Assembly: GCA_030917805.1 (NCBI GenBank)
Contig: JAUPUA010000032.1
Location: 1-16,005 of the forward strand
Length of the DNA: 16,005 bases
Source: Patescibacteria group bacterium
GTDB taxonomy: Bacteria; Patescibacteriota; Saccharimonadia; Saccharimonadales; HK-STAS-PATE-42
Direction of reading: 5' to 3'
A model generated the notes under the pieces. That model saw nothing but the letters and a program-made list of their open reading frames with translations. It did no database searches and was not told the DNA's origin. Positions 400 to 15,757 of this stretch are shown piece after piece. The position numbers were made by a program, and so were the translations under genes. Every line of letters begins with the position of its first letter. Position 1 is the first letter of the stretch.

Positions 400-409
400 T
401 TAAGCTTAA
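400..409. repeat. TTAAGCTTAA iterated palindrome, intergenic copy
   Basis: Perfect 10-bp palindrome in the 59-bp gap upstream of the response regulator. It lies immediately 5' of an AT-rich -10-like stretch (TATTAT 410-415 or TATAAA 413-418). It is one of at least 10 exact copies in this window: 400, 6978, 9080, 9343, 10367, 11277, 11625, 12134, 12476 and 12572. Confidence 0.8.
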
Positions 410-418
410 TATTATAAA
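410..418 (+). promoter_or_regulatory. Possible -10 region of the response regulator gene
   Basis: TATTAT (410-415) or TATAAA (413-418) lies 12-15 bases before the ATG at 431, which would give a leader of only about 6-9 nt. No convincing -35 is seen. There is no Shine-Dalgarno sequence before the ATG, which fits a nearly leaderless transcript. Confidence 0.35.
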
Positions 419-430
419 ACTATCTAGAAT

Positions 431-814
431 ATGAAAGACCCAGCAGATACAAAAATTGCAATCATTGAAGATCAAGAAGAGATCGCCGAGATGTACCGAT
501 TCAAGTTTGAATCTGTCGGCTATCAAGTAGAAGTAGCAGAAAACGGAGCAGTTGGCCACCGTATGGTCAAGGAATTTCAGCCAGATATTATTTTGATGGA
601 TCTCATGATGCCTGTTCAAGACGGACCAGAAACGCTAGATCAATTCAAAGCATCCGGAATAAAGACCCCAGTTATTGTACTAACAAACCTTGGTAAAGAA
701 GAGGCTATGGGCAAGATAAAGACCCCAGATAACATCGTAGATTTCATTATTAAAGCAGACTGTACGCCAACACAAGTGTTAGACCGCGTTAAAATGTTCC
801 TTGCCAAGATCTAG
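431..814 (+). CDS. Stand-alone receiver-domain response regulator (CheY/Spo0F-like)
   Basis: The 127-aa protein is a single REC domain with no output domain. Key residues are present: acidic pair E13-D14 (IIED), phosphoacceptor D57 in LMDLMMP, T85 in VLTN and K108 in IKAD. It should accept a phosphoryl group from a histidine kinase and act through protein contacts rather than DNA binding. No kinase lies in this window, so its partner is encoded elsewhere. The ATG at 431 is chosen because it starts directly at the first beta strand of the fold. It has no Shine-Dalgarno site and a very short possible leader. It is followed after 65 bases by the helicase gene, which has its own -10 element, so co-transcription is uncertain. 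Family assignment is secure; the pathway is unknown. Confidence 0.9.
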   Translation: MKDPADTKIAIIEDQEEIAEMYRFKFESVGYQVEVAENGAVGHRMVKEFQPDIILMDLMMPVQDGPETLDQFKASGIKTPVIVLTNLGKEEAMGKIKTPDNIVDFIIKADCTPTQVLDRVKMFLAKI

Positions 815-839
815 CCAAGAAGTTTAGCCTAGATTACTC

Positions 840-848
840 TGCTACAAT
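840..848 (+). promoter_or_regulatory. Extended -10 promoter for the helicase gene (TGCTACAAT)
   Basis: The TGnTACAAT form of an extended -10 element sits about 31 bases before the ATG at 880. No clear -35 hexamer is seen at the usual spacing. The same TGnTACAAT arrangement precedes the sugar transferase at 10413. Confidence 0.5.
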
Positions 849-879
849 TAAGATTAAGTAAAAACACTCTAATTTATTG

Positions 880-3096
880 ATGTCGGAAGATTTTTTAAAA
901 GAGCTCAATGAGGCTCAATATAAAGCCGCTACAGCAATTGATGGGCCAGTTCTGGTTCTGGCCGGCGCAGGTTCTGGTAAAACTAAAACTCTAGTATATC
1001 GAATTGCGCACTTACTCCGCTCAGGAATATATCCATCCCAAATCCTTGCTGTAACCTTTACCAATAAAGCCGCAAAAGAGATGCGTGAGCGTGTGCAGGA
1101 GCTCTATCTAAACCTAGGGGGTGAAAAGGGCACAGACTTCACCCTACCCTACCTAGGGACCTTCCATAGCATCTGTGTGCGTATTCTAAGACGAGAAGGT
1201 CAACATATTGGAATTCCATCTAACTTCGTTATCTATGATGATGGCGATCGCATGCAGCTAATTAAGCAAATTCTTAAAAATAATTTAAATATTCAAGATA
1301 TTAAACTTGCACGCCCAATTTTGAGCTTGATATCAAAGATGAAGAATGACGGCTTGACTCAAGAAGACCTTGAATTCAACGCAAAAACACCTAATGAAAA
1401 GATTACCGCAGAAGCTTGGCCGATTTATAAGAAAAAGATGGATGATCTCGGAGCGTTAGATTTTGATGATTTAATCTTAAAGACTGCAGAACTCTTTTCA
1501 ACATCTCAGGAGGTTAGAGAAGCATACAAATCGAGGTTTAAGCACATTCTAGTAGACGAGTATCAGGATACAAACCCAATTCAGTACAAACTTCTAAAAT
1601 CACTCACAGAAGAAAAAAGTAACATCTTTGTTGTAGGAGATGACTGGCAAAGCATTTATAGCTGGCGTGGAGCTGATTATCGAATTATTCTTAACTTTGA
1701 GCAGGACTTTCCAGGTGCTCAGGTTATAAAGCTAGAACAGAACTACCGTTCGACCCAGAATATCTTGGATGTTGCTCATAAAATAATTACTAAAAATACC
1801 TCTCGCTCTGCCAAAGAATTATTTACAGAAGAAGGCCCCGGCAAAGACGTAGAGTTAATGCAGGCCAGTTCCGAGAACCACGAAGCCGAGATGATCGTTT
1901 CTAAAATGCGAGACTTAATCTCTGAAGAAGACCGCCAGTGGAGAGACTTTGTAGTCCTATACCGAACAAACGCCCAATCTCGTTCTTTTGAGGAGGCCTT
2001 TATGCGCACAGGAACTCCATATCAAATTGTTGGAGGAGTACGTTTTTACGAGCGCAAAGAGGTTAAAGATTTAATTAGCTATCTTCGTTTAATCTATAAT
2101 CCAAACGACTCGGTATCTTTTGACAGAATTATTAATGTTCCTGCAAGGGGTATAGGTGCTAAATCTCTCTTAGCTCTGCAGAGCTTCGCAGCAGAAAAAG
2201 GCTCTCTGTCAGCCGCCCTGGCCTTTCTAGACCAATGCCCAGGTATAAGTGGTAAAGCCCTAACTTCTGCCCAAAGCTTTTATTCAAAGATAGAAAAGAT
2301 AAGATCTGAACTGCTCATGAATAATGTAGCCGATACTATACAAATTGTTATATCTAAATTTGGCCTAGATGAGTTCTATAACGATAACACACCTCAAGGT
2401 ATTGAACGTTTAGAGAACTTAAGAGAACTCGCTAGTGTAGCTACGGCCCAAGGTGCAACTGATCTTGGAGCCTTTTTAGAAGATGTCGCGCTTGTCTCAG
2501 ACCTAGATTCGCTCACCTCGGAAGGTGACTCTGTAACCTTAATGACAATTCATGGCTCCAAAGGGCTAGAATTCCCTGTCGTCTTTATCGCCGGCCTAGA
2601 AGAGGGCGTGTTCCCGCACTCTCGTTCTGCCGGTAATCAAGAAGAGCTTGAAGAAGAGCGTCGACTTGCCTATGTGGCCATGACGCGTGCCAGAGAGGCC
2701 CTTTACCTCATTTATGCTACAAGGCGCATAATATACGGCAATCCACAAAACAATCCACCCTCACGCTTTGTAACAGAGCTTCTAGACGAAAACATTATCA
2801 AAGTAGCACCGGGCTTTAGCTTAAATCCAACCAGTATTCTTTTTGGAGGTTTTCAACCTCAAGCGAGGGATATCTTTAGTGAAGCGGAACAAGTTAACCA
2901 AACACTTTCTCAGGGTGGGTTTAAGCAACAAGTTAAGCCAGAAACCAACTCAAGCCTAGCCGAGGGCTCAAAAGTATCTCACCCAAGCTTTGGTGTGGGA
3001 ACAGTTGTAGAAATCAACGAACCCATGGCCACTATAGTCTTCAGTTCTGGGCCAAAACAACTACATTTAGAATATGCACCTTTAAGTTTAGTATAG
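880..3096 (+). CDS. pcrA: UvrD/PcrA/Rep-type superfamily 1A DNA helicase
   Basis: A 3'-5' ATP-dependent DNA helicase acting in repair, replication restart and transcription-coupled repair. With the ATG at 880 (a TTG lies directly before it) it is 738 aa, normal for the family. Motifs in order: Walker A AGAGSGKT (about 28-35), Ia AVTFTNKAAKEM, DEAD-type motif II VDEYQDT (about 225), III GDDWQSIYSWRGAD (about 253), IV LEQNYRS (about 285), V MTIHGSKGLEFPVVF (about 554), VI AYVAMTRAREALYL (about 597-610). The last 40 residues (GSKVSHPSFGVGTVVEI...) match the tudor-like PcrA tail that contacts RNA polymerase. W replaces the common D in GDDDQ of motif III, a variant I associate with candidate-phyla proteins. 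pcrA and uvrD are hard to tell apart by sequence alone; the tail favours PcrA. Confidence 0.95.
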   Translation: MSEDFLKELNEAQYKAATAIDGPVLVLAGAGSGKTKTLVYRIAHLLRSGIYPSQILAVTFTNKAAKEMRERVQELYLNLGGEKGTDFTLPYLGTFHSICVRILRREGQHIGIPSNFVIYDDGDRMQLIKQILKNNLNIQDIKLARPILSLISKMKNDGLTQEDLEFNAKTPNEKITAEAWPIYKKKMDDLGALDFDDLILKTAELFSTSQEVREAYKSRFKHILVDEYQDTNPIQYKLLKSLTEEKSNIFVVGDDWQSIYSWRGADYRIILNFEQDFPGAQVIKLEQNYRSTQNILDVAHKIITKNTSRSAKELFTEEGPGKDVELMQASSENHEAEMIVSKMRDLISEEDRQWRDFVVLYRTNAQSRSFEEAFMRTGTPYQIVGGVRFYERKEVKDLISYLRLIYNPNDSVSFDRIINVPARGIGAKSLLALQSFAAEKGSLSAALAFLDQCPGISGKALTSAQSFYSKIEKIRSELLMNNVADTIQIVISKFGLDEFYNDNTPQGIERLENLRELASVATAQGATDLGAFLEDVALVSDLDSLTSEGDSVTLMTIHGSKGLEFPVVFIAGLEEGVFPHSRSAGNQEELEEERRLAYVAMTRAREALYLIYATRRIIYGNPQNNPPSRFVTELLDENIIKVAPGFSLNPTSILFGGFQPQARDIFSEAEQVNQTLSQGGFKQQVKPETNSSLAEGSKVSHPSFGVGTVVEINEPMATIVFSSGPKQLHLEYAPLSLV

Positions 3097-3107
3097 TTAA
3101 AAAAAGT

Positions 3108-3377: not shown

Positions 3378-3383
3378 TACGGT

Positions 3384-4034: not shown

Positions 4035-4035
4035 C

Positions 4036-4641: not shown

Positions 4642-4686
4642 ATTGTTCCATCATCTTGACCGTAGTGCAGAGATCTTAGTTTAGTT

Positions 4687-4971: not shown

Positions 4972-4980
4972 CTTTATAGT

Positions 4981-5917: not shown

Positions 5918-7756
5918 ATGAAAAAAGAAGATAAAGATAAAACAAAGAAGTCTAAAGAGATAGGCCTAAAAGACTCCATCTACGTAATAGCTCGAACACT
6001 AAAGATTGGCTGGAAAATTGATAAACTAAATTACTCATCGAGATTCTTCTTCTCAACTATAGAGGTAGTGGGTACAATAATCGCAACTTATGTAGGCTCA
6101 AGAGTCCTCGGAGAACTAATTACTTCCGTAAACCAGGGCTCGGCAACTAGTCTACTCTACCAACTTGCTATTGCTGAAGGTTTCATCCTTCTGGCAGTTA
6201 ATATGTCTGCTGCATTATCTACCTTATCCGACAGAATAATGTTTATTAAGTGGGATAAATGGTTCACTTTAGAGCTTAACAGGGCACGTTCCGAACTAGA
6301 TACAGATTTCTTTGAAGATCGTAACAATCAGAAGCTTTTGAATAAGATCGATAGAAAAGGAGTCTGGGCTGTGGAGGCAGTTTCTAATAATACAGTCTAC
6401 CTTTACTATAACCTATTAAAAATGATTTTAATTCTAGGATCAGTTCTTGTGTTAGGGCCAATTATAATTATCCTTATAATTGTTTCAAGTATTCCTAGAA
6501 TATATGCAGAGATAAAAAGATCTAAGCTTGAATGGGGAATATGGGCGACAAAAGGGGATGAATATCATACTCACCAAAAGACAATAGGACTGTTCAGAGA
6601 TCAAAAGAATCTAATTGAAATAAAACTTTACGGTCTTAAGAATAGGCTTCTTTATGGTGTGGCTGCAAAGAATATAGATAAATTTGGTCAAACACAAGTT
6701 GCAGCCTCAAAGTCAACTCTTGGAGCAGAGTCTGTGGCTCATTTAGCTTACGAGGGAACTTTTCTTGCAGTAACACTATACCTTCTTAAGAGAGCCGTAG
6801 AAGGAGCAATAACTATTGCTAACTTCTCATTCTACGCTGGTGTACTGAACCAGTTCAGTTCATCTATGCGCAACTTATCTTCGATAATATCAAGATCAAG
6901 TGAATCTATACTCTATACAAAAGATGTCTATAGTATCCTAGATGTGAACGCTACAATCGTAAGTCCTACGGATGCAATTAAGCTTAACAAGGCAGAGATC
7001 CCAACAATCGAATTCAAAGATGTTTCATTTGCCTATAGATCTAACCCAGACGAAAAGATTCTTGAGAATCTAAACTTAACTATCAAGCCAGGCGAACATC
7101 TAGCCCTAGTTGGCGAGAACGGAGCAGGGAAGACCACCATAATTAAGCTTCTATTAAGGCTTTATGATGTGACTGAAGGCCAGATTTTGGTTAATGGCAT
7201 TAACATTAAAGAACTTGATCTTGATAGCTACTGGCGCCAAATAGGTGTTCTATTTCAAGATTTCAACCGCTACCCATTCGATATCAAAACCAACATAGAG
7301 CTAGGTCGTGTCACCAAGACTCCGACTAAAAAGGAGATTGATCGTGCAGTGGAGCTTTCTAATCTAGGACCAATCTTAAACAAGTTACCAAAGGGTATCA
7401 ACACGATTCTAGATAACTCTTTTGAAGAAGGGGTTGAGCCAAGTGGCGGACAGTGGCAACGTGTCGCTCTAGCTCGCGCTTTTTATCGCAACTCGAACAT
7501 CCTAATCCTTGATGAGCCAACAGCAGCCGTAGATGCTAATGCAGAGTATGAAATCTTCAACAACATCTTCACTCACTACGGTGATAAAACTGCCCTAATC
7601 ATCTCTCACCGCTTCTCAACAGTTAAGCGAGCCCAAAGAATAGTTGTTTTAGATAAGGGTAGGATCATTGAAGAGGGCAGCCACAAAGACTTAATGAATA
7701 ATTCTAAGTTATATGCCGGAATGTTCACTAAGCAAGCTGAAGGTTACAAAGATTAG
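5918..7756 (+). CDS. ABC transporter, fused permease and ATPase (MsbA/exporter type)
   Basis: The 612-aa half-transporter has an N-terminal membrane domain (about residues 35-330, several hydrophobic segments such as LYYNLLKMILILGSVLVL) and a C-terminal ATPase. ATPase motifs: Walker A GENGAGKTT (about 398-406), Q-loop VLFQDF, signature PSGGQWQRVALARA (about 507; P replaces the usual L of LSGGQ), Walker B ILILDEPTAAVDA (about 527) and H-loop ISHRFST (about 562). Two copies would form an exporter. The substrate cannot be read from sequence; the nearby glycan genes make a lipid-linked saccharide or a lipid plausible, while peptides or drugs remain possible. No Shine-Dalgarno site is seen. The next small membrane gene follows after 18 bases. 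Confidence 0.92.
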   Translation: MKKEDKDKTKKSKEIGLKDSIYVIARTLKIGWKIDKLNYSSRFFFSTIEVVGTIIATYVGSRVLGELITSVNQGSATSLLYQLAIAEGFILLAVNMSAALSTLSDRIMFIKWDKWFTLELNRARSELDTDFFEDRNNQKLLNKIDRKGVWAVEAVSNNTVYLYYNLLKMILILGSVLVLGPIIIILIIVSSIPRIYAEIKRSKLEWGIWATKGDEYHTHQKTIGLFRDQKNLIEIKLYGLKNRLLYGVAAKNIDKFGQTQVAASKSTLGAESVAHLAYEGTFLAVTLYLLKRAVEGAITIANFSFYAGVLNQFSSSMRNLSSIISRSSESILYTKDVYSILDVNATIVSPTDAIKLNKAEIPTIEFKDVSFAYRSNPDEKILENLNLTIKPGEHLALVGENGAGKTTIIKLLLRLYDVTEGQILVNGINIKELDLDSYWRQIGVLFQDFNRYPFDIKTNIELGRVTKTPTKKEIDRAVELSNLGPILNKLPKGINTILDNSFEEGVEPSGGQWQRVALARAFYRNSNILILDEPTAAVDANAEYEIFNNIFTHYGDKTALIISHRFSTVKRAQRIVVLDKGRIIEEGSHKDLMNNSKLYAGMFTKQAEGYKD

Positions 7757-7758
7757 CT

Positions 7759-7774: not shown

Positions 7775-8008
7775 ATGATTAAGAATAATAACAATAACAA
7801 TAACAATACTAAGGGAAAAGATACTGTAGCAAGAAGAGCTATGATAGTAACGATAGTAGTTGCTACTATCATTTTTTATCTAAAAACCTATGTGAGAGAC
7901 CAAACATCCCTAATCATAATATTATTTCTAATAGTTTTGTTCTCGCCACTTATAGTTATGTTGCTTATTCTACAGATTCGGAAGAATAACAGACTACTAA
8001 AGAAGTAG
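7775..8008 (+). CDS. Small two-helix membrane protein with an Asn-rich N-terminus
   Basis: A 77-aa protein of unknown function. Residues 4-11 are eight Asn in a row, encoded by an AAC/AAT microsatellite. Two hydrophobic stretches follow (about 22-37, AMIVTIVVATIIFYL, and 45-67, LIIILFLIVLFSPLIVMLL), separated by a short charged turn, with a basic tail (RKNNRLLKK). A good AAGGAG site and an 18-base gap from the ABC gene suggest co-expression and perhaps an accessory role. Its last 44 bases overlap the 3' end of the convergent ligase gene. I know no family for it. Confidence 0.6.
   Translation: MIKNNNNNNNNTKGKDTVARRAMIVTIVVATIIFYLKTYVRDQTSLIIILFLIVLFSPLIVMLLILQIRKNNRLLKK
7785..7808. repeat. 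AATAAC hexanucleotide microsatellite inside a coding region
   Basis: An AAT/AAC run containing three tandem AATAAC units encodes the poly-Asn tract of the small membrane protein. Because the unit is 6 bases, gain or loss of a unit would change the Asn count without shifting the frame. Confidence 0.7.
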
Positions 8009-9341
8009 CTAGTGCAGAGACTACCCACAAGTGCGTAATAGTTAACTCCCCAAAAGTGATACTTTGGATCAAGAACCCAAGCAAATAAATTCCAATTCCA
8101 ATAACAAAAACTTTTTCATGTTCGCTCAAGCTTAGCTTCTTCAAGTAACTCCTACTAAAACTGTTTCTTAAAATTGCACCTAAGAAGAATATGATCATCA
8201 AAAGCCCAACTAATCCATACTCCACCCAAACATCCAGTAACATAAAATTAGAGGTTGCCTCGAAGCCTTTTTCTGGCACCAAGCTTAAACCATGCTGACC
8301 AGCTCCAACACCAACTAGAATATTCTCAGGACTAGATTCAACTACTACCCAAGCATCTTCTCTTGCCTCGTCTCTAGAGTTGATTGAGTTCTGATCAGCC
8401 TCGTCCTCTTTAGAACCCCACGGCTTAATTGTCTCTAAATGCCCAACAATTGTAGAAAAGCCTTTCTCGTAAAGATGATCCTCGTCAGTTCCTTGTTTTC
8501 CTATAACAGAAGTTAGGCCAACAAGAAGCACCAGAGCAAGAACTCCACCAAGTGCTAACTTTGCTAGATCCTTAAGTTTAAGTCTCTCCTTAAGTTCTGT
8601 AAAGTTATAGGCTAGGCCTATCAAACCAATGAATACGCTGGCAACAATTGCTCCTCTGGCTAAACTTAATAAAATCGCCATGTAAATTAAGGTTATGATG
8701 CCGAATCTAGAGTAGATGCTTTTGATAAACTTTCCGGTTCTATCTGCCCACAATAAGCCTAGGGGTAAGAGTAGATAAAGCCCAAAATAAAGTGGCTCAA
8801 GTAAGGTAGAGTGCATTCTTGGCAACCCTAAACGCTCAGCAGTGTACTCCTCACGTATTCCAGTAAAGTTTGAACTTAATCCCAAGAGATCACCAAACCA
8901 CTGCCAAAACCCAAACCCAATCACCAACAAGGCAGATACAATCAGTGTTTTGTAAGTTAAGTTTAGGTAAGTCCTACCCCTACAGTTTCTAACCACAGAG
9001 TAAACTGCATAAAACGCCGCGACATTAAACCCTAAGATCAAATTAGACTTAAGCCCAAAAGTGGTGCTCTCAGACCAAATTAAGCTTAATAATGAGAATG
9101 CGAAGAAGAGCAGGGGAGCAATAACAAAACTCTTCCTGAACTCTTTGAACTTAAAACTTCTTAATAACCTAGGAGCTTCTAGCCCCACAAGTAGAGTTCC
9201 AACCAGGATACTAAGCTTAACAGTAAGTCCTGCAACATCAAAGCTCGGAATTCTCTCCAACGGCAAAACAAACACCAGAGCAAGAAGCAATCTCTCTCTA
9301 AAACTCAAAGCCGTATATTGTTCTAAAAATCTCTTAAGCAT
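7965..9341 (-). CDS. O-antigen ligase / polymerase family membrane protein (WaaL/Wzy-like)
   Basis: The 458-aa protein has about ten to twelve hydrophobic segments. A large hydrophilic loop (about residues 275-380) contains SRDEAREDAW and ENILVGVGAGQHG, the layout of O-antigen ligases and polysaccharide polymerases. AILLSLARGAIVA, before the loop, is another family hallmark. It would transfer or polymerise glycan from a polyprenyl carrier on the outer face of the membrane. Ligase and polymerase cannot be separated by sequence. The start at 9341 is preceded by only 35 bases after the kinase-like gene, so the two may share a transcript; TATACT on the minus strand in that gap could be a local -10. 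The gene ends inside the convergent small membrane gene, a 44-bp overlap. Confidence 0.85.
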   Translation of the reverse strand: MLKRFLEQYTALSFRERLLLALVFVLPLERIPSFDVAGLTVKLSILVGTLLVGLEAPRLLRSFKFKEFRKSFVIAPLLFFAFSLLSLIWSESTTFGLKSNLILGFNVAAFYAVYSVVRNCRGRTYLNLTYKTLIVSALLVIGFGFWQWFGDLLGLSSNFTGIREEYTAERLGLPRMHSTLLEPLYFGLYLLLPLGLLWADRTGKFIKSIYSRFGIITLIYMAILLSLARGAIVASVFIGLIGLAYNFTELKERLKLKDLAKLALGGVLALVLLVGLTSVIGKQGTDEDHLYEKGFSTIVGHLETIKPWGSKEDEADQNSINSRDEAREDAWVVVESSPENILVGVGAGQHGLSLVPEKGFEATSNFMLLDVWVEYGLVGLLMIIFFLGAILRNSFSRSYLKKLSLSEHEKVFVIGIGIYLLGFLIQSITFGELTITHLWVVSALATSLVVCYSSESVE

Positions 9342-9342
9342 C

Positions 9343-9358
9343 TTAAGCTTAAGTTTAG
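9343..9358. repeat. Fused pair of the iterated word (TTAAGCTTAA + TTAAGTTTAG)
   Basis: TTAAGCTTAA (9343-9352) overlaps TTAAGTTTAG (9349-9358) by four bases. The pair lies directly upstream of the ligase ATG, between the ligase and the kinase-like gene. Confidence 0.75.
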
Positions 9359-9376
9359 CAGAGAGTATAAGGTCCT

Positions 9377-10309
9377 CTAAAAAATCTCATTAATTTTGCG
9401 CGCCATAGCCTTATGTGCTTCTGATTCTGACCACATTAATCCCCTAGCAATTATATTTAAGCCAGTCCTTGTTACGTTATCAGTATTAACGCCAGTAGTG
9501 TCTAATACAATAGGTACACCTTCAGCTAAAGCATCTTCTAAGTCAGAGTCATTATGACGCTCAGCTAGACTTAATCTACCATCTTGCTCATTAAAAAGCA
9601 CAAACTCATCAGGCATTCCAACGCCATCCACTGGCCTGTCCTCATCCTGAAGCGCCCTTTTTCTTAATTCCTCATGAGTCTTAACTAGGGCAGGGTGTAC
9701 TTGCCACCCCTTTTCACCATACTCAACCTCTCCTCTACTAGACATCCTTCGATGTGCTGCCTCAATTGGGTCGACTACCATAACAAGACTCGCTAGAAGA
9801 TCAGCTCCAACCCTTGGCTTTCCTAGTACTCTTTCTTGTACAAACTGTCTCATCTCTCTGCCATCAAAAGCGACTAGAGGCTCTGACCACTTTGAAGCAA
9901 AATCCTCAAGCCATTTAACTTTCATATGCTTAGTGTATGTCCTAACGAAGCTAGAGCTACCGAACGAAGCTACTCTGTTAGAGACATCTCCACCATGAAG
10001 AACAGATTCATGGACATCCATTCCGAATAGAGAGAGACCTCTTTCAGAGTGCCCAAAATTCCCAGCATTATCCCATGCAACTAATCTATCTCGAAACACT
10101 TCATCGTCTGGACTTAGTCCTTCCATCATTGCCCTTAGGGTGATTGATCTATATGCACATCCGCTGTCGTAAGCTAAACCTCCTACTTGTCTGATTGCAT
10201 CAGCCATTGTTCCTTTTCCTGAGCTAGTACCAACTCTCTCCTGGTCTAAGACTCTTCCTCTTACGTCACTTCCTGCGTCAATTGTTACGATTGCTAGTCT
10301 TTCTGGCAT
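9377..10309 (-). CDS. cmk: Divergent cytidylate kinase-like protein with insertion and tail
   Basis: Cytidylate kinase phosphorylates (d)CMP using ATP. Recognisable parts: SSGKGTMADAIRQ (P-loop), YDSGCAYRSITLRAMMEG (like DTGAMYRAVTLKAL), GGDVSNRVASFGSSSFVR (like DVSNAVSxVAA), VAFDGREMRQF (like VVDGRDIGT), a lid ALQDEDRPVD (like RDxxDxxR) and IVLDTTG near the end. At 310 aa it is longer than the usual 220-230. About 14 extra residues separate the first strand (TIDAGS) from the P-loop, the usual first P-loop Gly is replaced (VGTSSGKGT), the region before and after the lid is expanded, and a 30-residue tail follows DTTG. It has its own TTGATA-N17-TAGAAT promoter and lies upstream of the ligase. 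Family membership is fairly sure; activity and substrate are not. Confidence 0.72.
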   Translation of the reverse strand: MPERLAIVTIDAGSDVRGRVLDQERVGTSSGKGTMADAIRQVGGLAYDSGCAYRSITLRAMMEGLSPDDEVFRDRLVAWDNAGNFGHSERGLSLFGMDVHESVLHGGDVSNRVASFGSSSFVRTYTKHMKVKWLEDFASKWSEPLVAFDGREMRQFVQERVLGKPRVGADLLASLVMVVDPIEAAHRRMSSRGEVEYGEKGWQVHPALVKTHEELRKRALQDEDRPVDGVGMPDEFVLFNEQDGRLSLAERHNDSDLEDALAEGVPIVLDTTGVNTDNVTRTGLNIIARGLMWSESEAHKAMARKINEIF

Positions 10310-10332
10310 ATTCTTAGTATTAATCTAAACTT

Positions 10333-10361
10333 ATTCTACCACAATAGTTAGTATATATCAA
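10333..10361 (-). promoter_or_regulatory. Sigma-70-like promoter of the cytidylate kinase-like gene
   Basis: On the minus strand TTGATA (10361-10356), 17 bases and TAGAAT (10338-10333) form a near-consensus promoter. Initiation would fall about 17 nt before the ATG at 10309. It is divergent from the sugar transferase promoter in the same 103-bp gap. Confidence 0.65.
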
Positions 10362-10366
10362 TGAGC

Positions 10367-10376
10367 TTAAGCTTAA
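10367..10376. repeat. TTAAGCTTAA iterated palindrome between divergent promoters
   Basis: Exact copy lying between the minus-strand -35 (10356-10361) and the plus-strand extended -10 (10386-10394). It occupies the -35 zone of the sugar transferase promoter. Confidence 0.75.
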
Positions 10377-10385
10377 GTTCAAAAA

Positions 10386-10394
10386 TGGTACAAT
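10386..10394 (+). promoter_or_regulatory. Extended -10 promoter of the sugar transferase (TGGTACAAT)
   Basis: TGnTACAAT ends 18 bases before the ATG at 10413, giving a leader of roughly 12 nt. There is no good -35 hexamer, as often found with extended -10 promoters. No Shine-Dalgarno site follows. Confidence 0.55.
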
Positions 10395-10412
10395 GTTTAG
10401 CTATAAATAACT

Positions 10413-11870
10413 ATGCGACAAAAGTTTCAACTTCTTTATAATTTAGCCTTAATATTTAGCGATGCATTGGCTATTCTTGCCTCATTCTCTGTGGCCTACA
10501 TCTTAAGAGTTCAAATTGATACAAGACCAATCCTAAATCCAATATCCGCAAAAAGCTATCTTTTGATTTACCTCTCTGTTCTACCTTTTTGGCTTGGAAT
10601 CATGGCCTCGGTTGGCCTATATAAAAGAAGTTTCTATCACAGGTTTGTTAAAGAGTTTGTTGCTCTCGCAGTTACGTCACTAATAGGTATAATGGCGCTC
10701 ATAACTTTAGATTTTGCCCTGGATCGACCACTCTTCCCAGCCAGACTTGTTCCGGTTTATGCCTTTGGCTTAAGTTTAGGCTTCTTATGGCTAGGACGTT
10801 TAGTTCTACGTTTCATTAAATTTATGGCCGCAAGGTCAGGCAAGGGTTTAACCCGCGTTCTAATTATCGGTAATGGCGACATTGCTCCAAAACTCTATAA
10901 CAATCTAACTGGCAATAAGAATTATGAATACCGTTTAGAAGGAATCTGGATGCCAGAGCTTAAAGCCAACAAGATTAGAGATTTCAAACCGAGTAAGGAT
11001 CATCTGATTACCAACTTCTCCGCAGCTCTCAAACGAATTAGCGGACGCCACGTTGATCTTATTGTCCAGACAGAAGTTCTAGATGACGAGCGAAATTATC
11101 AGCTGACTTCTGCAGTAGAGGCTGCCCACGCTCGCTATAAACTCATCCCCTCTAACTCATCTTTATACGGAGTTAAAACCACCACAGACCTGTTCTTTGG
11201 AGTTCCTAGCCTAGATGTTCACATCACTCCCCTTGTTGGATGGAACACCGTCCTAAAGAGGATATTTGACATAACCTTAAGCTTAATTCTTCTCATAGTT
11301 GCAGTCATTCCTATGATCATCCTGGCTATTCTTGTTAAACTTAGTGATTTTAGGGGCCCAGTATTCTATAAACATGCAAGAGTTACCCGATTTGGCCAGA
11401 CGTTCTATATCTATAAATTTAGAAGCATGTACTGGAAGTATTGCACTGGTGGCAAGAAGACAAACCAGCAAGTGTTTAGAGAAATGGGAAGAGAAGATCT
11501 ACTTCATGAGTGGGAGACAACCCAAAAACTTAAAAATGACCCGCGCATAACTCCTTTAGGGAAGTTTCTGCGCAAAACTAGTCTAGATGAGCTTCCGCAG
11601 CTCATAAACGTTCTACAAGGTAAATTAAGCTTAATTGGCCCAAGAGCAATAACCAAAGAAGAACTCATAAGATATAAAGCCTCAAGGGATAAGTTCTTAA
11701 GTGTAAAGCCAGGTATTACAGGACTTTGGCAGGTGTCTGGACGCAATAATTTAGGCTACGAAGATCGCGTTAAACTAGATGTCTACTACGTACAAAACTG
11801 GAGCCTCTGGCTAGATATCAAAATCCTATTCAAAACAATTGGTGTAGTTTTAACTAGATCTGGTGAGTAA
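10413..11870 (+). CDS. Polyprenyl glycosylphosphotransferase (WbaP/CpsE-type initiating sugar transferase)
   Basis: Starts surface-glycan synthesis by moving a sugar-1-phosphate from a nucleotide sugar to undecaprenyl phosphate. The 485-aa protein has four N-terminal membrane segments (about 1-125), a nucleotide-binding-like middle (TRVLIIGNGDIA, about 145) and a C-terminal bacterial sugar transferase domain from about 275: KRIFDITLSLILLI, GPVFYKHARVTRFGQTFYIYKFRSM, DPRITPLGKFLRKTSLDELPQL, LSLIGPRA, KPGITGLWQVSGRN and YVQNWSLWLDIKILF. All signature segments of the catalytic domain are intact. The sugar cannot be told from sequence. Its stop overlaps or abuts the next glycosyltransferase start, so the two are probably translated together. 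Confidence 0.95.
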   Translation: MRQKFQLLYNLALIFSDALAILASFSVAYILRVQIDTRPILNPISAKSYLLIYLSVLPFWLGIMASVGLYKRSFYHRFVKEFVALAVTSLIGIMALITLDFALDRPLFPARLVPVYAFGLSLGFLWLGRLVLRFIKFMAARSGKGLTRVLIIGNGDIAPKLYNNLTGNKNYEYRLEGIWMPELKANKIRDFKPSKDHLITNFSAALKRISGRHVDLIVQTEVLDDERNYQLTSAVEAAHARYKLIPSNSSLYGVKTTTDLFFGVPSLDVHITPLVGWNTVLKRIFDITLSLILLIVAVIPMIILAILVKLSDFRGPVFYKHARVTRFGQTFYIYKFRSMYWKYCTGGKKTNQQVFREMGREDLLHEWETTQKLKNDPRITPLGKFLRKTSLDELPQLINVLQGKLSLIGPRAITKEELIRYKASRDKFLSVKPGITGLWQVSGRNNLGYEDRVKLDVYYVQNWSLWLDIKILFKTIGVVLTRSGE

Positions 11871-11874
11871 AGAT

Positions 11875-13005
11875 ATGTCTAAAAAAGAGCCTAAAATTGC
11901 ACTAGTACACGATTGGCTAACTAACATGCGCGGAGGCGAAAGAGTCCTTCTTGCCATGAAAAAGGCCTTCCCTAAAGCCGACATTTACACCTCTGTATAC
12001 GAACCAGAGAAGCTTCCTGAATTTGATAAATATAAAAGCCAGATCAGGACAACTTGGCTTCAAAAACTTCCTAAAAAACTACGCAACTTCCATCAACTCT
12101 TTCCAGTAATTAGAGTCATTGCCTTTAGATCAATTAAGCTTAATGATTACGACATTATCATCTCGGATACAAGCTCGGATGCAAAGCAAGTTAAAGCTGG
12201 CGAGAACACCAAACATATCTGCTACTGCTTCACCCCAACTCGCTACTACTGGTCGCACTACAATGATTATAAAAAAGACCCAGGATTTGGCAAGCTCAAC
12301 ATCCTAATAAAACCAATAATCCCACCATTTGTCTGGCTAATGCGAAAGTTTGATTATTCTGCAGCCAGCAGAGTTACTCAGTTTGTAGCCATATCATCAA
12401 AAGTTCAAAAAAGAATCCAAAAATACTATAAGCGAGAATCTACCGTAATATTTCCTCCAACAGATACTCACCTTATTAAGCTTAATTCTGATATTAAAAA
12501 TAGGGCAGGTTACGTCGTTTTTGGAGCTCAAGTTGCCTACAAACGTGCAGATTTAGCCATTCAAGCCTGCATTAAGCTTAAGTTAGACCTAACTCTCATT
12601 GGTAATGGTTCTGAGCACCAAAAGCTCAAAGAGCTAGCTTCTGGCCACGATAATATTAAGTTTAGAACTGATGTTGATGACAAAGAGAAATCTGAGCTAC
12701 TCGGAACCTTTAAGGCAATGATCTTCCCTCAAGAAGAAGATTACGGAATCTCTGCCATAGAATGCATGGCCGCCGGAACTCCAGTTATTGCCTACAAAAA
12801 AGGTGGAGCCAGAGATTACATCTCTCCAGAATCTGGAGTCTTCTTTAAAGAGCAAACCCTAGAATCTCTTGTTGATATTCTCAAAAGGTTTGAGGCTGGA
12901 GAGTTCGAGCACGAGCCAAGTAAAGTTCGCGAGCAAGCCCTTAAGTTTAGTAAAGAAGAATTTATAACTAAGATTCGACAGTTGGTTGATCAACCTCAGG
13001 ACTAG
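11875..13005 (+). CDS. Glycosyltransferase family 4 (mannosyltransferase WbaZ-like)
   Basis: A GT-B fold enzyme that adds a sugar to the lipid-linked acceptor. The N-terminus LVHDWLTNMRGGERVLLAM is typical of WbaZ-like GT4 proteins. The C-terminal donor-binding half contains YVVFGAQVAYKRADLAIQA and the E-X7-E-like region EEDYGISAIECMAAGTPVIAYKKGGARDYI. With the ATG at 11875 it is 376 aa; GGTGA at 11862-11866 is a weak ribosome site 8 nt upstream. A GTG at 11863, overlapping the previous stop, would add four residues (MSKD) and is an alternative start. The gene carries three exact TTAAGCTTAA words, each read as Ile-Lys-Leu. Its 3' end overlaps the convergent orphan gene by 38 bp. Family sure; donor sugar unknown. 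Confidence 0.93.
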   Translation: MSKKEPKIALVHDWLTNMRGGERVLLAMKKAFPKADIYTSVYEPEKLPEFDKYKSQIRTTWLQKLPKKLRNFHQLFPVIRVIAFRSIKLNDYDIIISDTSSDAKQVKAGENTKHICYCFTPTRYYWSHYNDYKKDPGFGKLNILIKPIIPPFVWLMRKFDYSAASRVTQFVAISSKVQKRIQKYYKRESTVIFPPTDTHLIKLNSDIKNRAGYVVFGAQVAYKRADLAIQACIKLKLDLTLIGNGSEHQKLKELASGHDNIKFRTDVDDKEKSELLGTFKAMIFPQEEDYGISAIECMAAGTPVIAYKKGGARDYISPESGVFFKEQTLESLVDILKRFEAGEFEHEPSKVREQALKFSKEEFITKIRQLVDQPQD

Positions 13006-13465
13006 GCGGTACCCACAATCCATCGCTCGCACAAGTCCAACCCTCAAATCTGCTTAGGTATCCTTCCATAGTACTGGCAATTGTAGAAGAGGCTTTAAAA
13101 ATATTTCTTGTGGTGTCAAGTTTCAAAATTGTGCTAAATTCATTACTAACCACTAGAGTGATAGCATTTCCTGTAGGGTCACTCCTACGTACAAATGCGG
13201 ATACTTGATTATTTCCAGGTTCGTAGAAGGATATACCGTAATATGGATGTTCTCCTAGGGATACTGAGACTAAACCAGGCATCCAATTTGGTTCATAGGT
13301 CCACATAAACCCTGAATTACTTTTGAGTTCTCCTTTTTCAGTTGCCGCCCAACACAATCTTGCAAGAGTATGACTCCTACCCTGTATAGGATCAGTAGGT
13401 ACTCTGAACTCACCACTAAGTGCAATGGCCACTCGCGGATTTAATTTATCTATAGGGTGTTCCAT
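12968..13465 (-). CDS. Orphan 165-aa protein of unknown function
   Basis: I do not recognise this protein. It has no membrane segment or clear signal peptide. The sequence is rich in Ser, Gly, Pro and aromatic residues with several short beta-like stretches (LVSVSLG, YYGISFYEPG, AITLVVSNEF, TILKLDTT), suggesting a soluble beta-rich fold, with a Pro-rich end (WVPPSPEVDQPTVES). Evidence for a real gene is a near-consensus promoter (TTGACA) upstream, an inverted repeat at the expected transcription start, and an ATG at a sensible distance (about 18 nt). Its last 38 bases overlap the 3' end of the glycosyltransferase gene. It contains no copy of the iterated word. The product cannot be assigned to the glycan pathway on present evidence. 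Confidence 0.6.
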   Translation of the reverse strand: MEHPIDKLNPRVAIALSGEFRVPTDPIQGRSHTLARLCWAATEKGELKSNSGFMWTYEPNWMPGLVSVSLGEHPYYGISFYEPGNNQVSAFVRRSDPTGNAITLVVSNEFSTILKLDTTRNIFKASSTIASTMEGYLSRFEGWTCASDGLWVPPSPEVDQPTVES

Positions 13466-13469
13466 ATGT

Positions 13470-13489
13470 AATTCAAACTATTTTGAATT
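13470..13489. promoter_or_regulatory. Inverted repeat at the start of the orphan gene (candidate operator or mRNA hairpin)
   Basis: AATTCAAA (13470-13477), CTAT, TTTGAATT (13482-13489) is a perfect 8-bp inverted repeat. It lies between the -10 and the ATG of the orphan gene and covers the expected transcription start, a classic repressor position. A 5' mRNA hairpin is the alternative reading. Confidence 0.55.
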
Positions 13490-13519
13490 ATTCTATAAGT
13501 ACAAACTACTATATGTCAA
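13490..13519 (-). promoter_or_regulatory. Near-consensus promoter of the orphan gene
   Basis: On the minus strand TTGACA (13519-13514) is followed after 16 bases by TATAGA (13497-13492) or after 18 bases by TAGAAT (13495-13490). The perfect -35 is the strongest seen on this strand. The -35 boxes of this promoter and the divergent rpsP promoter are only 3 bases apart. Confidence 0.7.
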
Positions 13520-13522
13520 GCG

Positions 13523-13552
13523 TTTACAGGTGGGCTAAGCTTAATGTATAAT
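13523..13552 (+). promoter_or_regulatory. Promoter of rpsP (TTTACA-N18-TATAAT)
   Basis: TTTACA (13523-13528) and a perfect TATAAT (13547-13552) are separated by 18 bases. The spacer holds one copy of the iterated word (CTAAGCTTAA, 13535-13544). Initiation would give a leader of about 47 nt before the ATG at 13606. Confidence 0.75.
13535..13544. repeat. CTAAGCTTAA copy of the iterated word inside the rpsP promoter spacer
   Basis: A nine-of-ten match to the palindrome TTAAGCTTAA, lying exactly between the -35 and -10 boxes of the rpsP promoter. Confidence 0.65.
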
Positions 13553-13605
13553 CAACATTAATCCTCGAGACAAAAAATAACAATAAGGAAATAAGAGAAT
13601 AACAA

Positions 13606-14031
13606 ATGCTAGTAATCAGACTTCAAAGAAGAGGACGTAAGGGTTTAGCCATGTACCGCATGGTTGTGCAAGATAAGCGAACTCACCCCTCAAAAGAAAA
13701 AGTAGTGGCCCGTCTTGGAAACTACAACCCACACACAAAAGAACTTAACTTAGATAATGAATTAGCTCAAAAGTATTTAGATGCTGGTGCACAACCATCT
13801 CCTAGGTCTGTAAAGCTCCTTAAGCTATCGGGAGTTAAGCTGCCAGCTTGGGTTAAAGAAGTTGCTAATAAGCCTCGTACAACCAGAAACGCTGAAAAGT
13901 TGAGAAAGAATCAACCAAAAGAAGAGGTAGCCGAAGCTCCGGCAGAATCAGAAGAAACCTCTGAGACAGAGGTAGAGACCACTGAAGAAACTACTGAGGC
14001 CTCCAAAGAAGAGACTTCCACCGAAGCCTAG
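13606..14031 (+). CDS. rpsP: 30S ribosomal protein S16 with an acidic C-terminal extension
   Basis: Ribosomal protein S16, an early assembly protein of the 30S body. The start MLVIRLQRRGRKGLAMYRMVVQDKR and ARLGNYNP are diagnostic. The core occupies about the first 85 residues, the normal family length. A further 56 residues follow: a basic linker (NKPRTTRNAEKLRKNQPK), then a Glu/Thr/Ser-rich acidic tail. The total is 141 aa. It has its own strong promoter and is followed after 51 bases by khpA, the usual neighbour. rimM and trmD, often next in this operon, are not here; trmD lies with recR. A weak AAGGA element lies too far upstream (16 nt) to be a good Shine-Dalgarno site. Confidence 0.95.
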   Translation: MLVIRLQRRGRKGLAMYRMVVQDKRTHPSKEKVVARLGNYNPHTKELNLDNELAQKYLDAGAQPSPRSVKLLKLSGVKLPAWVKEVANKPRTTRNAEKLRKNQPKEEVAEAPAESEETSETEVETTEETTEASKEETSTEA

Positions 14032-14043
14032 TAATAAGCTAAA

Positions 14044-14053
14044 CTAAGCTTAA
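14044..14053. repeat. CTAAGCTTAA copy of the iterated word between rpsP and khpA
   Basis: A nine-of-ten match to TTAAGCTTAA in the 51-base rpsP-khpA gap. Related fragments (AAGCTAAACTAAGC) surround it. Confidence 0.65.
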
Positions 14054-14082
14054 GTAAACCTAACGAGTCCCACTAAAAGACC

Positions 14083-14481
14083 ATGGAAACCACAATTGAC
14101 CAAAACTTTGTTGAATTTATTGCAAAACAGTTAGTAGATAATGAGGACGATGTACAGGTAGAGCGCGTAGTTGATGAAAGAGGAGTACTACTTACACTCT
14201 ACGTAAACCCAGCAGATCTTGGCAGAGTAATCGGTAAAAGAGGTGCTATTGCCGAAAGCATTAGGACTCTTTTACGTTCTTTAGGAATCAAGAATAACGC
14301 CCACTATAACCTAAAGATTGCTGATACAGATGGAGGTTCCGGCTCAACAATTCAACCTCAAAAAGATCAATACGATTATAGTGTGGATAACCCTACCCCG
14401 GAAACAGTTCAAAACAATGAGGAATCAGAGTCTGATTTTGTTAAGAATACCCGTCAAGAACTTGCAGATTTAGAAGGATAA
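14083..14481 (+). CDS. khpA: KhpA-type KH-domain RNA-binding protein with C-terminal extension
   Basis: A small type II KH-domain protein that binds RNA and, in Firmicutes, partners with KhpB/Jag in controlling cell elongation. The core (residues about 5-80) has FVEFIAKQLVDNEDDV, VNPADLGRVIGKRGAIAESIRTLL with the GXXG loop GKRG at 51-54, and YNLKIAD. It is 132 aa; the usual length is about 75-85, so about 50 polar, acidic residues are added at the C-terminus. The position after rpsP is the standard one. No Shine-Dalgarno site precedes the ATG. A small hairpin with a T-run (14492-14512) and then a structured RNA follow the stop. Confidence 0.92.
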   Translation: METTIDQNFVEFIAKQLVDNEDDVQVERVVDERGVLLTLYVNPADLGRVIGKRGAIAESIRTLLRSLGIKNNAHYNLKIADTDGGSGSTIQPQKDQYDYSVDNPTPETVQNNEESESDFVKNTRQELADLEG

Positions 14482-14491
14482 CTGGTAACAT

Positions 14492-14512
14492 AAGCAGTAA
14501 GTACTTGCTTTT
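14492..14512 (+). terminator. Weak terminator-like hairpin after khpA
   Basis: AAGCA (14492-14496) pairs with TGCTT (14506-14510) around a 9-nt loop, and TTTT follows. The stem is only 5 bp, so termination would be partial. It may separate the rpsP-khpA transcript from the downstream RNA. Confidence 0.3.
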
Positions 14513-14600
14513 GAATCGTTGTTAAAACATTCTAGAGAAGGAGTAGGTACTAAAAACTTCCTCATTGGCTTATTCAAATAGTGAGCTTTATGTGGCAGGT

Positions 14601-14752
14601 GAAACCTCTAGACCATTAGTGTTTAAGAGTAAAGTTTGAATCTTAGTCTTCTTAGCAAAAAAGTTCGCGCTCCAAAGCTAAAGAAGCATAGTGATAAGTT
14701 TTAAACCCTCATTGCGAGAACTCTTAAGCCTCTGGTGAATCTAGGGGTTTTT
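14601..14752 (+). ncRNA. Candidate structured non-coding RNA (long rod, about 150 nt)
   Basis: No protein gene fits 14482-14778. From 14602 to 14750 the sequence folds back on itself by stacked helices that I paired by hand: 14602-14611 with 14741-14750 (10 bp), 14612-14615 with 14733-14736 (4 bp), 14621-14630 with 14720-14729 (10 bp), 14634-14645 with 14695-14706 (12 positions, one T-T mismatch) and 14648-14656 with 14677-14686 (9 bp, one bulged A). The apical loop is about 20 nt, and a 3/13-nt asymmetric internal loop lies midway (14631-14633 and 14707-14719). A TTTTT tract ends the RNA on the plus strand; the minus strand has none, so plus is preferred. A weak promoter (TTGGCT 14565-14570, 18 bases, TATGTG 14589-14594) would start near 14601. 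I see no SRP, tmRNA or RNase P core motif. A 6S-like RNA is possible but unproven. Confidence 0.6.
14729..14752 (+). terminator. Intrinsic terminator at the 3' end of the structured RNA
   Basis: CCTCTGG (14729-14735), loop TGAAT, CTAGGGG (14741-14747) form a 7-bp stem with two G-U pairs, followed by TTTTT (14748-14752). The 3' arm can pair instead with 14602-14611, so the terminator and the closing helix of the rod exclude each other. Confidence 0.6.
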
Positions 14753-14778
14753 CTGCGCCATAGTTCGCTTTCTTAGCA

Positions 14779-15198
14779 TTAATTATGGTGATACGGTGAC
14801 CCTTTGGTTATCTCTATTGTTCTGTAGATCTGCTCAGCAAGCATTATTCTAAATAGTCGATGAGGAAAGACCTGCTCAGAGAAACTCCAAGTTAGATTAG
14901 CCCGTTCTTTTAGCTCTCTGCTGACTCCATATGCCTCACCAATAATAAAAACAAGTCTCTTGTACCTCCCAGAGCTAGTAACATCCTCAAACTTTTTAGT
15001 AAACTCAAGGTTGTTTAATCGGACTCCTGTCTCATCAAGAACTACTACAAAGTCACTCTCTACTAGCTTATCTGCAGAAACAGGTATTGTCAGCAGCTCA
15101 AACTTGAAGATCCTAGAGATTCTTTTACAATAATCTTCTAGTAACTCTTTCTCAGCACCTTTAGGCTTGTCTCCTGGTGAGTAAATAACAATCTGCAT
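14779..15198 (-). CDS. rlmH: 23S rRNA (pseudouridine1915-N3)-methyltransferase RlmH
   Basis: Methylates pseudouridine 1915 in helix 69 of 23S rRNA on assembled ribosomes, using S-adenosylmethionine. The SPOUT-fold signatures are clear: VVVLDETG (about 52-58), the cofactor loop FIIGEAYGVS (about 83-92) and the C-terminal FPHRLFRIMLAEQIYRTIEI plus GSPYHHN. At 139 aa it is slightly shorter than the E. coli protein (155 aa), mainly at the N-terminus. It is divergent from the VanZ-like gene with only 22 bases between the starts. No Shine-Dalgarno site is seen. Its 3' end abuts the structured RNA of the opposite strand. Confidence 0.94.
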   Translation of the reverse strand: MQIVIYSPGDKPKGAEKELLEDYCKRISRIFKFELLTIPVSADKLVESDFVVVLDETGVRLNNLEFTKKFEDVTSSGRYKRLVFIIGEAYGVSRELKERANLTWSFSEQVFPHRLFRIMLAEQIYRTIEITKGSPYHHN

Positions 15199-15199
15199 C

Positions 15200-15208
15200 T
15201 GATAAAAT
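15200..15208 (+). promoter_or_regulatory. Extended -10 element before the VanZ-like gene (TGATAAAAT)
   Basis: The TGnTAAAAT element ends 12 bases before the ATG at 15221, so the leader would be about 6 nt or less. It overlaps the start region of the divergent rlmH gene. Confidence 0.4.
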
Positions 15209-15220
15209 TATTACTAGCTA

Positions 15221-15757
15221 ATGAATACTCCAATTATAAACTACTTCCTAGGAATAGGAATGCTATTAACCTTAACTTTTCTACCAAAGAAGATATATTG
15301 GCTGTATGGTATTAACAAAAAAGAAGAACTAAAGTATCTCCCATACATTGCTGGGTTATTGCCAGTTATTTATACAGCCTTCTTTGAGGTATATGTAAGG
15401 CTAGCAGGATATCCGGACTTAAGTTTAGAGGTATTCCTAAACTTTCTTCAGCACTCCATTGGTGGAGGAGTCGCGGTCGGACTTATCTCATTTTATCTGT
15501 ACCAAAACTTTAAAACTCAAATACCATGGCTAAAAGATTGGCGAATAAAACTGATTTTTTTATTAGGAATTGTAAGTATCTTTGGAGTAGCCAACGAAAT
15601 AATCGAATTAAATCTAGATCTACTAAACTTTAGTGAATACTCAAGAGACCGCTACGACACCTGGGTAGATCTCGTCGCCAACACCACGGGCGCAGTTGCA
15701 GTATTCTATTCACTACAAATCTTAAGGAACCTTCGACATAAATCCAATCTTCGCTAG
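15221..15757 (+). CDS. VanZ-like / DUF2238-like integral membrane protein
   Basis: A 178-aa protein with about four to five hydrophobic segments: residues 5-22, 40-60, 80-98, 112-128 and 148-166. The segment NEIIELNLDLL, then RYDTWVDLVANTTGAVAVFY (about 126-162), has the E...D...D...N..G spacing typical of VanZ-like and related DUF2238 membrane families. The function of these families is poorly known; VanZ confers low-level teicoplanin resistance, but most relatives are uncharacterised. The start ATG is the only reasonable one, with an extended -10 just upstream and no Shine-Dalgarno site. The stop lies 23 bases before the convergent partial gene at the window end. Family assignment is by motif only. 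Confidence 0.6.
   Translation: MNTPIINYFLGIGMLLTLTFLPKKIYWLYGINKKEELKYLPYIAGLLPVIYTAFFEVYVRLAGYPDLSLEVFLNFLQHSIGGGVAVGLISFYLYQNFKTQIPWLKDWRIKLIFLLGIVSIFGVANEIIELNLDLLNFSEYSRDRYDTWVDLVANTTGAVAVFYSLQILRNLRHKSNLR

Follow-up and report, generated by a model that had tools for sequence, protein, structure and literature searches.

Why should one contig of a saccharibacterium, a tiny parasitic bacterium living as an epibiont, carry the same 10-base word two dozen times? The stretch examined here, called the window at its full length of 16,005 nucleotides, is contig 12 of a Saccharibacteria metagenome-assembled genome (MAG; G000, 612,200 bases in 93 contigs, completeness 65.6%, contamination 1.7%), and the word is TTAAGYTTAR. 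A preliminary description of the window had listed 23 starts, all of which carry the stated words, but its tally is one short, as a further TTAAGTTTAG lies at 8660 on the minus strand. Because ten palindromes count twice, the resulting 24 sites, two of them overlapping (9343 and 9349), give 34 strand-hits, compared with a mean of 0.69 (standard deviation 0.88, largest 4) in 200 dinucleotide-preserving shuffles. We give an even chance to the reading that TTAAGYTTAR is a lineage-specific label of self DNA, working like a DNA uptake sequence (DUS) and used together with ComEC.

Being among the densest contigs, the window overstates the rate in the rest of the genome: its 1.50 sites per kb rank third of 40 contigs, against 0.50 per kb in contigs without the window. 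Genome-wide, TTAAGYTTAR has 342 strand-hits in G000 versus 12 for the reversed word, a soft control in that it may contain CG. In the 38 unmasked contigs used for own-contig counts (249,311 bases, window among them), the four-word family occupies 129 sites versus 9.5 expected from an order-2 Markov model, so that the genome count proposed in the preliminary description falls far above its Markov expectation. A held-out set of 20 further G000 contigs, of which three were masked and 17 counted (118,437 bases), holds 51 sites (0.43 per kb). Six G000 contigs that consist of N (L024, L027, L039, L138, L143 and L149) do not enter the counts. G000 contigs differ unevenly in their density of sites (chi-square 87 versus 38 expected, window excluded). 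By tetranucleotide distance, contigs of at least 3 kb were nearest to G001, a genome of the same genus (74% complete) that shares family f1 with G000, except for L025 and L040 (nearest G031) and L021 (nearest L046, a contig of a relative); contamination may be a cause of the unevenness.

The excess belongs to an exact word. Four forms are enriched in G000, TTAAGCTTAA (80 strand-occurrences, 3.5 expected), TTAAGCTTAG (32, 2.4 expected), TTAAGTTTAG (39, 2.2 expected) and TTAAGTTTAA (18, 3.1 expected), and neither CTAAGTTTAA (3 versus 2.2) nor CTAAGTTTAG (2 versus 1.5) is. One half is invariably TTAAG and the other varies at its last and central bases, with single changes at positions 2-4 and 7-9 giving only 0-6 strand-occurrences, near or slightly over expectation. 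The exact family reaches 13.6 times expectation, versus 1.95 times for one-off variants (303 versus 155.8). A HindIII-site or hexamer effect is ruled out, as AAGCTT outside TAAGCTTA lies at or below expectation (155 versus 179.5).

Gene calls were home-made, and the permutation tests take genes as exchangeable. In 299 G000 genes, 90 coding copies were counted versus 17.9±4.1 under within-gene synonymous permutation (200 permutations, largest 31), and 35 intergenic copies were found where the order-2 model gives 1.95, corresponding to 0.40 per kb coding and 1.5 per kb intergenic. The held-out contigs gave 32 coding copies versus 5.1 (maximum 12 in 100 permutations), with 1.68 sites per kb intergenic and 0.29 per kb coding, and the pattern was weaker in G001 (coding 15 versus 5.8±2.3; intergenic 14 versus 1.2). 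With an excess that survives synonymous permutation and is greatest between genes, the earlier statement that protein sequence alone does not account for the copies holds. An explanation of the word from protein sequence, codon usage or base composition might draw on the Leu-Ser-Leu and x-Lys-Leu readings that do occur and on an A+T content of about 60%, but a 5-fold excess over synonymous permutation and an 18-fold excess over the intergenic Markov count remain, and the rest of the 392 order genomes fall far short of G000 (compositions not compared one by one). Such an origin is therefore exceedingly improbable, the two counts ruling out a composition or codon artefact. No copies occur in phase 2, where the word would create a stop codon. 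Asymmetric genic copies are split 34 on the gene strand to 33 on the opposite strand, and this lack of bias rules out an RNA-level signal and indicates that the word is read in DNA.

As far as the genomes compared go, strong enrichment is confined to family f1. In the scan of 392 order genomes, TTAAGYTTAA had 188 strand-hits in G000 (control 8) and 41 in G001 (control 2), with G217 next at 47 (control 22), so the comparison of copy number with sister genomes that had been suggested puts G000 by far highest. Genomes of other families were mildly above the reversed control (G031 56 versus 6, G006 41 versus 11, G011 34 versus 4 strand-hits); in stretches of G031, G006, G011 and G037 the palindrome had 0-4 strand-occurrences (0.3-1.2 expected) and no comparable word stood out, a weak presence being possible. 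A scan with the PcrA-like protein recovered L045 (a MAG contig, 84% identical), whose genome has word counts identical to those of G001, and L046 (from an 'uncultured Candidatus Saccharibacteria' MAG, 78%), the third match being distant at 25%. In L046, where all results, dialect included, rest on 8.2 kb of the 587-kb contig CALMQB010000002, there are 15 copies of TTAAGTTTAA versus 0.17 expected and three palindromic sites, and TTAAGYTTAR gives 24 strand-hits versus 0.23 in shuffles. Here too the word is exact, with the family at 48.5 times expectation and one-off variants at 2.0 times (13 versus 6.5); 22 of the 30 single-substitution variants of TTAAGTTTAA are absent, and the commonest variant is the palindrome. 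The palindrome is the commonest form in G000 and G001, not in L046, and TTAAGTTTAA of L046 is an asymmetric dialect of the G000 word.

These sites do not stay in place. In an alignment of the window, G001 and L046, many L046 copies have counterparts in the other two that stay aligned but carry substitutions, which at 7095 change the protein as well (RecR frames, by our own reading); window and L046 share two sites (3082/5233 and 4998/7581). G000 and G001 align over 63.6 kb with 70% identity. Of 36 aligned G000 sites none recurs in G001, and of 11 G001 sites one recurs in G000; the sites, with an identity of 0.66, diverge like their flanks (0.68). The positional conservation between related genomes that characterizes DUS and the uptake signal sequences (USS) of Pasteurellaceae is thus not seen between G000 and G001, and without conserved positions a gene-specific operator is ruled out. 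Since sites turn over while the exact family far exceeds one-off variants, it is copy number, not place, that is maintained, the behavior expected of drive or of selection on count.

Sites are unequally distributed among gene classes. A first set was drawn from outside the window and comprised 70 genes no shorter than 1 kb, five window genes having been dropped because the window had been chosen for density; four phage, recombinase or restriction genes were removed from the comparison. Scans against Pfam or NCBIfam covered 55 of the 70, and the other 15, along with genes that had no match, were assigned to the rest on visual judgment. The replication, repair and recombination genes (PIF1-like, topA, polA, dinB-like, recG, rarA-like and ligA) held 19 sites in 12,066 bases (7 genes) versus 37 in 89,880 bases for 59 others (p = 0.0046, post hoc; p = 0.0275 without recG, p = 0.0088 with ftsK), and by site count recG ranked first among all genes examined (7), followed by ligA (6) and polA (4). 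This excess is somewhat weakened by a higher permutation expectation for the repair class (0.195 versus 0.081 per kb). Because that test was post hoc, new contigs were used with the class fixed before counting: among held-out genes of at least 600 bases, the eight repair genes named beforehand from Pfam had 8 sites in 10,074 bases versus 15 in 74,646 bases for 72 genes (p = 0.021). Scans covered these eight, a TatD DNase and one unknown (both in the rest), and the remaining 70 were classed by inspection of their starts; permutation expectations (0.066 versus 0.046 per kb, repair versus rest) and third-position G+C were similar between classes. Sites are about fourfold denser in replication and repair genes (p = 0.02 for the pre-fixed class), and pooling both sets (15 repair genes of 146) gives p = 0.0007, a value that mixes post hoc and prospective tests. 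Four phage, mobile or defense genes had 0 sites in 7,677 bases, a small sample of undated acquisition. Density showed no clear trend with gene conservation (Spearman -0.09, 60 genes with a G001 match), the middle identity class being densest (0.86 per kb versus 0.19 and 0.15).

The preliminary description had also raised HIP1 of cyanobacteria, and a word made and kept by DNA methylation with a methylation-linked repair bias would share several traits with what we observed: high iteration, a palindromic core in the commonest G000 form, and deviations that tend to fall at the two end positions, a tendency also described for HIP1 (PMC4390886). A methyltransferase is at hand, as PF02384 matches occur in G000 and G001 and in none of the eight other genomes among the ten compared; the protein is a 1029-residue Type IIG enzyme of the N6-adenine methyltransferase kind with a Type ISP specificity domain, adjoining a pyrG-like gene. 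Its specificity region is much diverged between G000 and G001, as if specificity had been swapped. Matches to the enzyme were found in 15 of 392 order genomes, some partial. Among f31 genomes with partial or distant homologs, word counts were moderate (G237 14/15, G233 16/17 and G200 8/11 strand-hits versus controls of 2/1, 5/6 and 2/0), but they were so in f31 genomes without the homolog as well. The specificity region of G000 is 53% identical to that of G001 and 71% to that of G291, the nearest of five compared, and G291 lacks word enrichment (0/4 versus control 6/6). Since G291 is unenriched while the word-sharing G001 has a different specificity region, the enzyme does not explain the word, and it is ruled out as its maker because the other near full-length homologs compared, in other families, come likewise without enrichment or nearly so (G129 2/6 versus 1/1, G226 2/3 versus 3/3, G307 8/6 versus 3/4). 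Furthermore, no C5 methyltransferase (PF00145) was found in G000 or G001, and the one PF01555 match in G000, partial and within an open frame beside an L27-like gene, was judged by us to be a Trm11-like tRNA enzyme; PADLOC scans of 219 G000 proteins, each listing the 25 commonest families, gave weak Type II methyltransferase matches for it (best among those listed 4.7e-10 over 50 residues). No word-matching methyltransferase was found among the three families searched, PF02086 and PF07669 not having been searched genome-wide. Unlike HIP1, the hexamer core is not enriched alone and the L046 dialect is asymmetric. Taken with the missing enzyme, these differences take support from the methylation proposal, which we consider improbable.

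An abundant chromosome-organizing (nucleoid) protein or global regulator, with binding sites selected for number and not place, has perhaps one chance in four by our judgment. It would fit the higher density between genes, the palindromic form of the commonest G000 word, as for a dimer, the overlapping copies with a 6-base period (four such spacings among 121) and the overdispersion of site number between contigs. In G001, 11 of 13 usable intergenic sites also lie 15-50 bases upstream of a start codon versus 5.7 expected (post hoc), but G000 has no such preference (14 intergenic sites at that distance versus 14.9 expected), relatives do not keep the sites in place, the preferred word of L046 is asymmetric, and a bias toward replication and repair genes is not predicted. 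Recombination hotspots such as Chi and chromosome-polarity signals such as KOPS (FtsK-orienting polar sequences) are likewise short and very frequent words, a trait matched here. The asymmetric copies of L046 favor one strand 16:4 (p = 0.012, post hoc) and site-rich replication and repair genes loosely fit a recombination role, yet in G000 copies fall 42:47 with respect to the G-rich strand, with no correlation with contig GC skew and so no replication-strand bias, and the many palindromic copies cannot point; a role of this kind appears quite unlikely.

Uptake sequences are tied to type IV pili, and the DUS of Neisseriaceae is read by the minor pilin ComP. The word described here resembles the DUS in being 10 bases long, in occurring on both strands and both in and between genes, in having dialects between related taxa, in its excess in replication and repair genes, with recG richest, and perhaps in lacking copies in the few putatively acquired genes seen. 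According to PMC5063381, recG is the DUS-richest gene recognized in N. meningitidis, and neisserial DUS are denser in repair, recombination, restriction-modification and replication genes. The word described here differs from the DUS in its many palindromic copies, in its host phylum (Saccharibacteria, Patescibacteria), in positions not conserved at 70% identity, and in its pairing as a hairpin or terminator at one window place only: of 17 terminator-like sites in the window (12.3±3.6 in shuffles), the word takes part in a single one (9333-9353). The USS of Pasteurellaceae is comparable as a short, exact and frequent word with dialects, of which two are described, and its predicted receptor is a type IV minor pilin (PMC12616744); it is a different word, and here orientation in reading frames shows no preference.

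Regarding machinery, comEC is present as stop-free open frames of about 485-500 residues in both G000 and G001, and in a cultured saccharibacterium natural transformation is comEC-dependent and growth depends critically on type IV pili (PMC10633639). The expected pilus genes were not found. PilC (PF00482) has no match in G000 or G001 (66% and 74% complete) versus 2-4 domain matches in each of eight relatives; pilins (PF07963) have none in G000 and one weak match in G001 versus 5-7; T2SSE ATPases (PF00437) over cut-off number one in each versus four; and a PilT-like and two PilB-like ATPases (names from length and score, our own) are missing from both and present in all eight. Since the assemblies are 66% and 74% complete, absence of pilus genes is not proven. 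A single PilB/GspE-type ATPase is common to all ten genomes (in G000 at L112:2581-4221, on the same stretch as a GAPDH-like gene), and a VirB4-like fragment adjoining a 1122-residue protein of unknown kind (L153:1302-5345, G000:C58, on a word-free 5.3-kb contig) reveals a type IV secretion locus. The preliminary description had looked to competence and pilus genes together: comEC bears this out, and its premise that type IV pilus genes read the label loses support, with PilC, PilT and the two usual PilB missing. Its overall interpretation is partly supported: the uptake reading has gained, on the strength of a relative's dialect, position and strand independence in G000, repair-gene bias, ComEC, and a few site-free phage and mobile genes, and the methylation and pilus components have lost.

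If the word is a self-DNA label, a surface or envelope DNA-binding protein would prefer word-bearing DNA, and DNA of kin would consequently be imported through ComEC and recombined more often. Word-bearing alleles would thereby spread by molecular drive, most strongly at loosely constrained protein positions and where there is a benefit in restoring repair genes. Because type IV pilus genes were not found, the receptor would have to differ from the usual pilin; one candidate is a component of the type IV secretion apparatus, another a component of a reduced secretion system built on the single PilB/GspE-type ATPase. The fuller proposal, an independent uptake-sequence system in Patescibacteria with a non-pilin receptor that keeps an epibiont's repair genes restorable by DNA of its own kind, is tentative and in our estimate probably incorrect in at least some part. 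We do not claim membership of the DUS/USS family, since its defining pilus-borne receptor was tested for and not found.

Besides the missing pilus genes, several observations weigh against a self-DNA label. The same-genus genome G001 is poor in the word (29 sites in 194 kb versus 5.5 expected), and TTAAGYTTAR is missing from its contig, 30 kb long, that carries comEC and a ligA-like gene. Neisserial DUS are strongly conserved in place (PMC2397512), though the genomes compared here are far more diverged, and uptake sequences elsewhere favor one orientation in reading frames (PMC2346458), unlike the even split found here. Denser in sites than recG are, for example, L005:4178-4798 (4 in 621 bases) and window gene 11863-13005 (5 in 1,143 bases). 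The densest window genes are for exopolysaccharide, its pcrA (1 site in 2,220 bases) and recR (0) being unremarkable; exonuclease I contributes 4 of the 8 held-out repair sites, and three of the eight held-out repair genes (uvrC, a dnaE piece and dnaX) lack the word. The word is also missing from the Type IIG restriction gene, in contrast to the DUS-rich restriction-modification genes of Neisseria.

Table 1. Sites of the word in the window, with the Type IIG enzyme of the two f1 genomes.
Feature	Position	Strand	Context
TTAAGCTTAA (palindrome)	400..409	.	intergenic, between open reading frames 3-371 and 431-814
TTAAGTTTAG	3082..3091	+	3' end of pcrA/uvrD-like gene; L046 has TTAAGCTTAG at same place
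TTAAGTTTAA	4998..5007	+	intergenic; L046 has identical word at same place
TTAAGCTTAA	6978..6987	.	within ABC transporter gene 5918-7756
TTAAGTTTAG	7070..7079	-	within ABC transporter gene 5918-7756
TTAAGTTTAA	8572..8581	+	within O-antigen-ligase-like gene 7965-9341 (Wzy_C match slightly under cut-off)
TTAAGTTTAG	8660..8669	-	copy absent from preliminary description
TTAAGTTTAG	8957..8966	+	within gene 7965-9341
TTAAGCTTAA	9080..9089	.	within gene 7965-9341
TTAAGCTTAG	9211..9220	-	within gene 7965-9341
TTAAGCTTAA	9343..9352	.	intergenic; 4-base overlap with copy at 9349 (6-base period)
TTAAGTTTAG	9349..9358	+	intergenic; overlaps copy at 9343
TTAAGCTTAA	10367..10376	.	divergent intergenic region 10310-10412
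TTAAGTTTAG	10770..10779	+	within polyprenyl glycosylphosphotransferase gene 10413-11870
TTAAGCTTAA	11277..11286	.	within gene 10413-11870
TTAAGCTTAA	11625..11634	.	within gene 10413-11870
TTAAGCTTAA	12134..12143	.	within glycosyltransferase-like gene 11863-13005
TTAAGCTTAA	12476..12485	.	within gene 11863-13005
TTAAGCTTAA	12572..12581	.	within gene 11863-13005
TTAAGTTTAG	12656..12665	+	within gene 11863-13005
TTAAGTTTAG	12941..12950	+	within gene 11863-13005
TTAAGCTTAG	13535..13544	-	intergenic, upstream of rpsP-like gene 13606-14031
TTAAGCTTAG	14044..14053	-	intergenic, between 13606-14031 and 14083-14481
TTAAGTTTAG	15419..15428	+	within gene 15221-15757
Type IIG enzyme	L124:1759-4848 (G000:C42) and L125:1-2874 (G001:C86)		place conserved beside pyrG-like gene

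Within the window, an exopolysaccharide gene cluster (7965-13005) holds 16 of the 24 sites, three of them between its genes, and three of its genes carry 5, 3 and 5 sites versus 0.57, 0.18 and 0.64 by synonymous permutation. Between two of its sugar-polymer genes, 9377-10309 on the minus strand encodes a protein weakly resembling (d)CMP kinase, under curated cut-offs. A second sugar-gene cluster (O-antigen-ligase-like and glycosyltransferase genes) on the 6.4-kb contig L040 (G000:C37) is word-free, in contrast to the dense window cluster, and its tetranucleotides are nearer those of G031, of another family. The window has no Rfam family at gathering score and no tRNA. Elsewhere in G000, the 6.6-kb contig L029 (G000:C26) is phage-like, with a large terminase and a weak portal match, and is word-free. 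By eye, some intergenic copies lie a few bases from a start codon (L015:4536, L042:330, L017:14194, L011:601, L009:4683 and, in G001, L062:2128), and most of these directly follow a TATAAT-like box to form TATAATTAAGYTTAATG, an arrangement like that of leaderless promoters. L046 carries a second dispersed repeat of about 26 bases (GTCATCCTGAGCTTGCCGAAGGATCT, variants 69-81% alike) in five copies within 8.2 kb (1619, 2341, 7190, 7639 and 7724), with longer similarity between some pairs of copies.

In two proteobacterial families the existence of uptake sequences is established (PMC2346458). Our literature search returned no paper linking Saccharibacteria, Patescibacteria or the Candidate Phyla Radiation to uptake sequences or over-represented words. 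To our knowledge, there are no uptake sequences beyond those two families. The uptake idea is testable, as cultured Saccharibacteria undergo natural transformation, and the word could help in handling lineage f1. If pili are truly gone from this family, that would be a surprise in itself and any receptor for the label must be of another kind. If the self-DNA label is real, the receptor of such a label need not be a pilin, and the Candidate Phyla Radiation would offer an independent case, with a similar leaning to repair genes and recG once more richest, in which to test whether self-labels arise as a means of restoring genome-maintenance genes.

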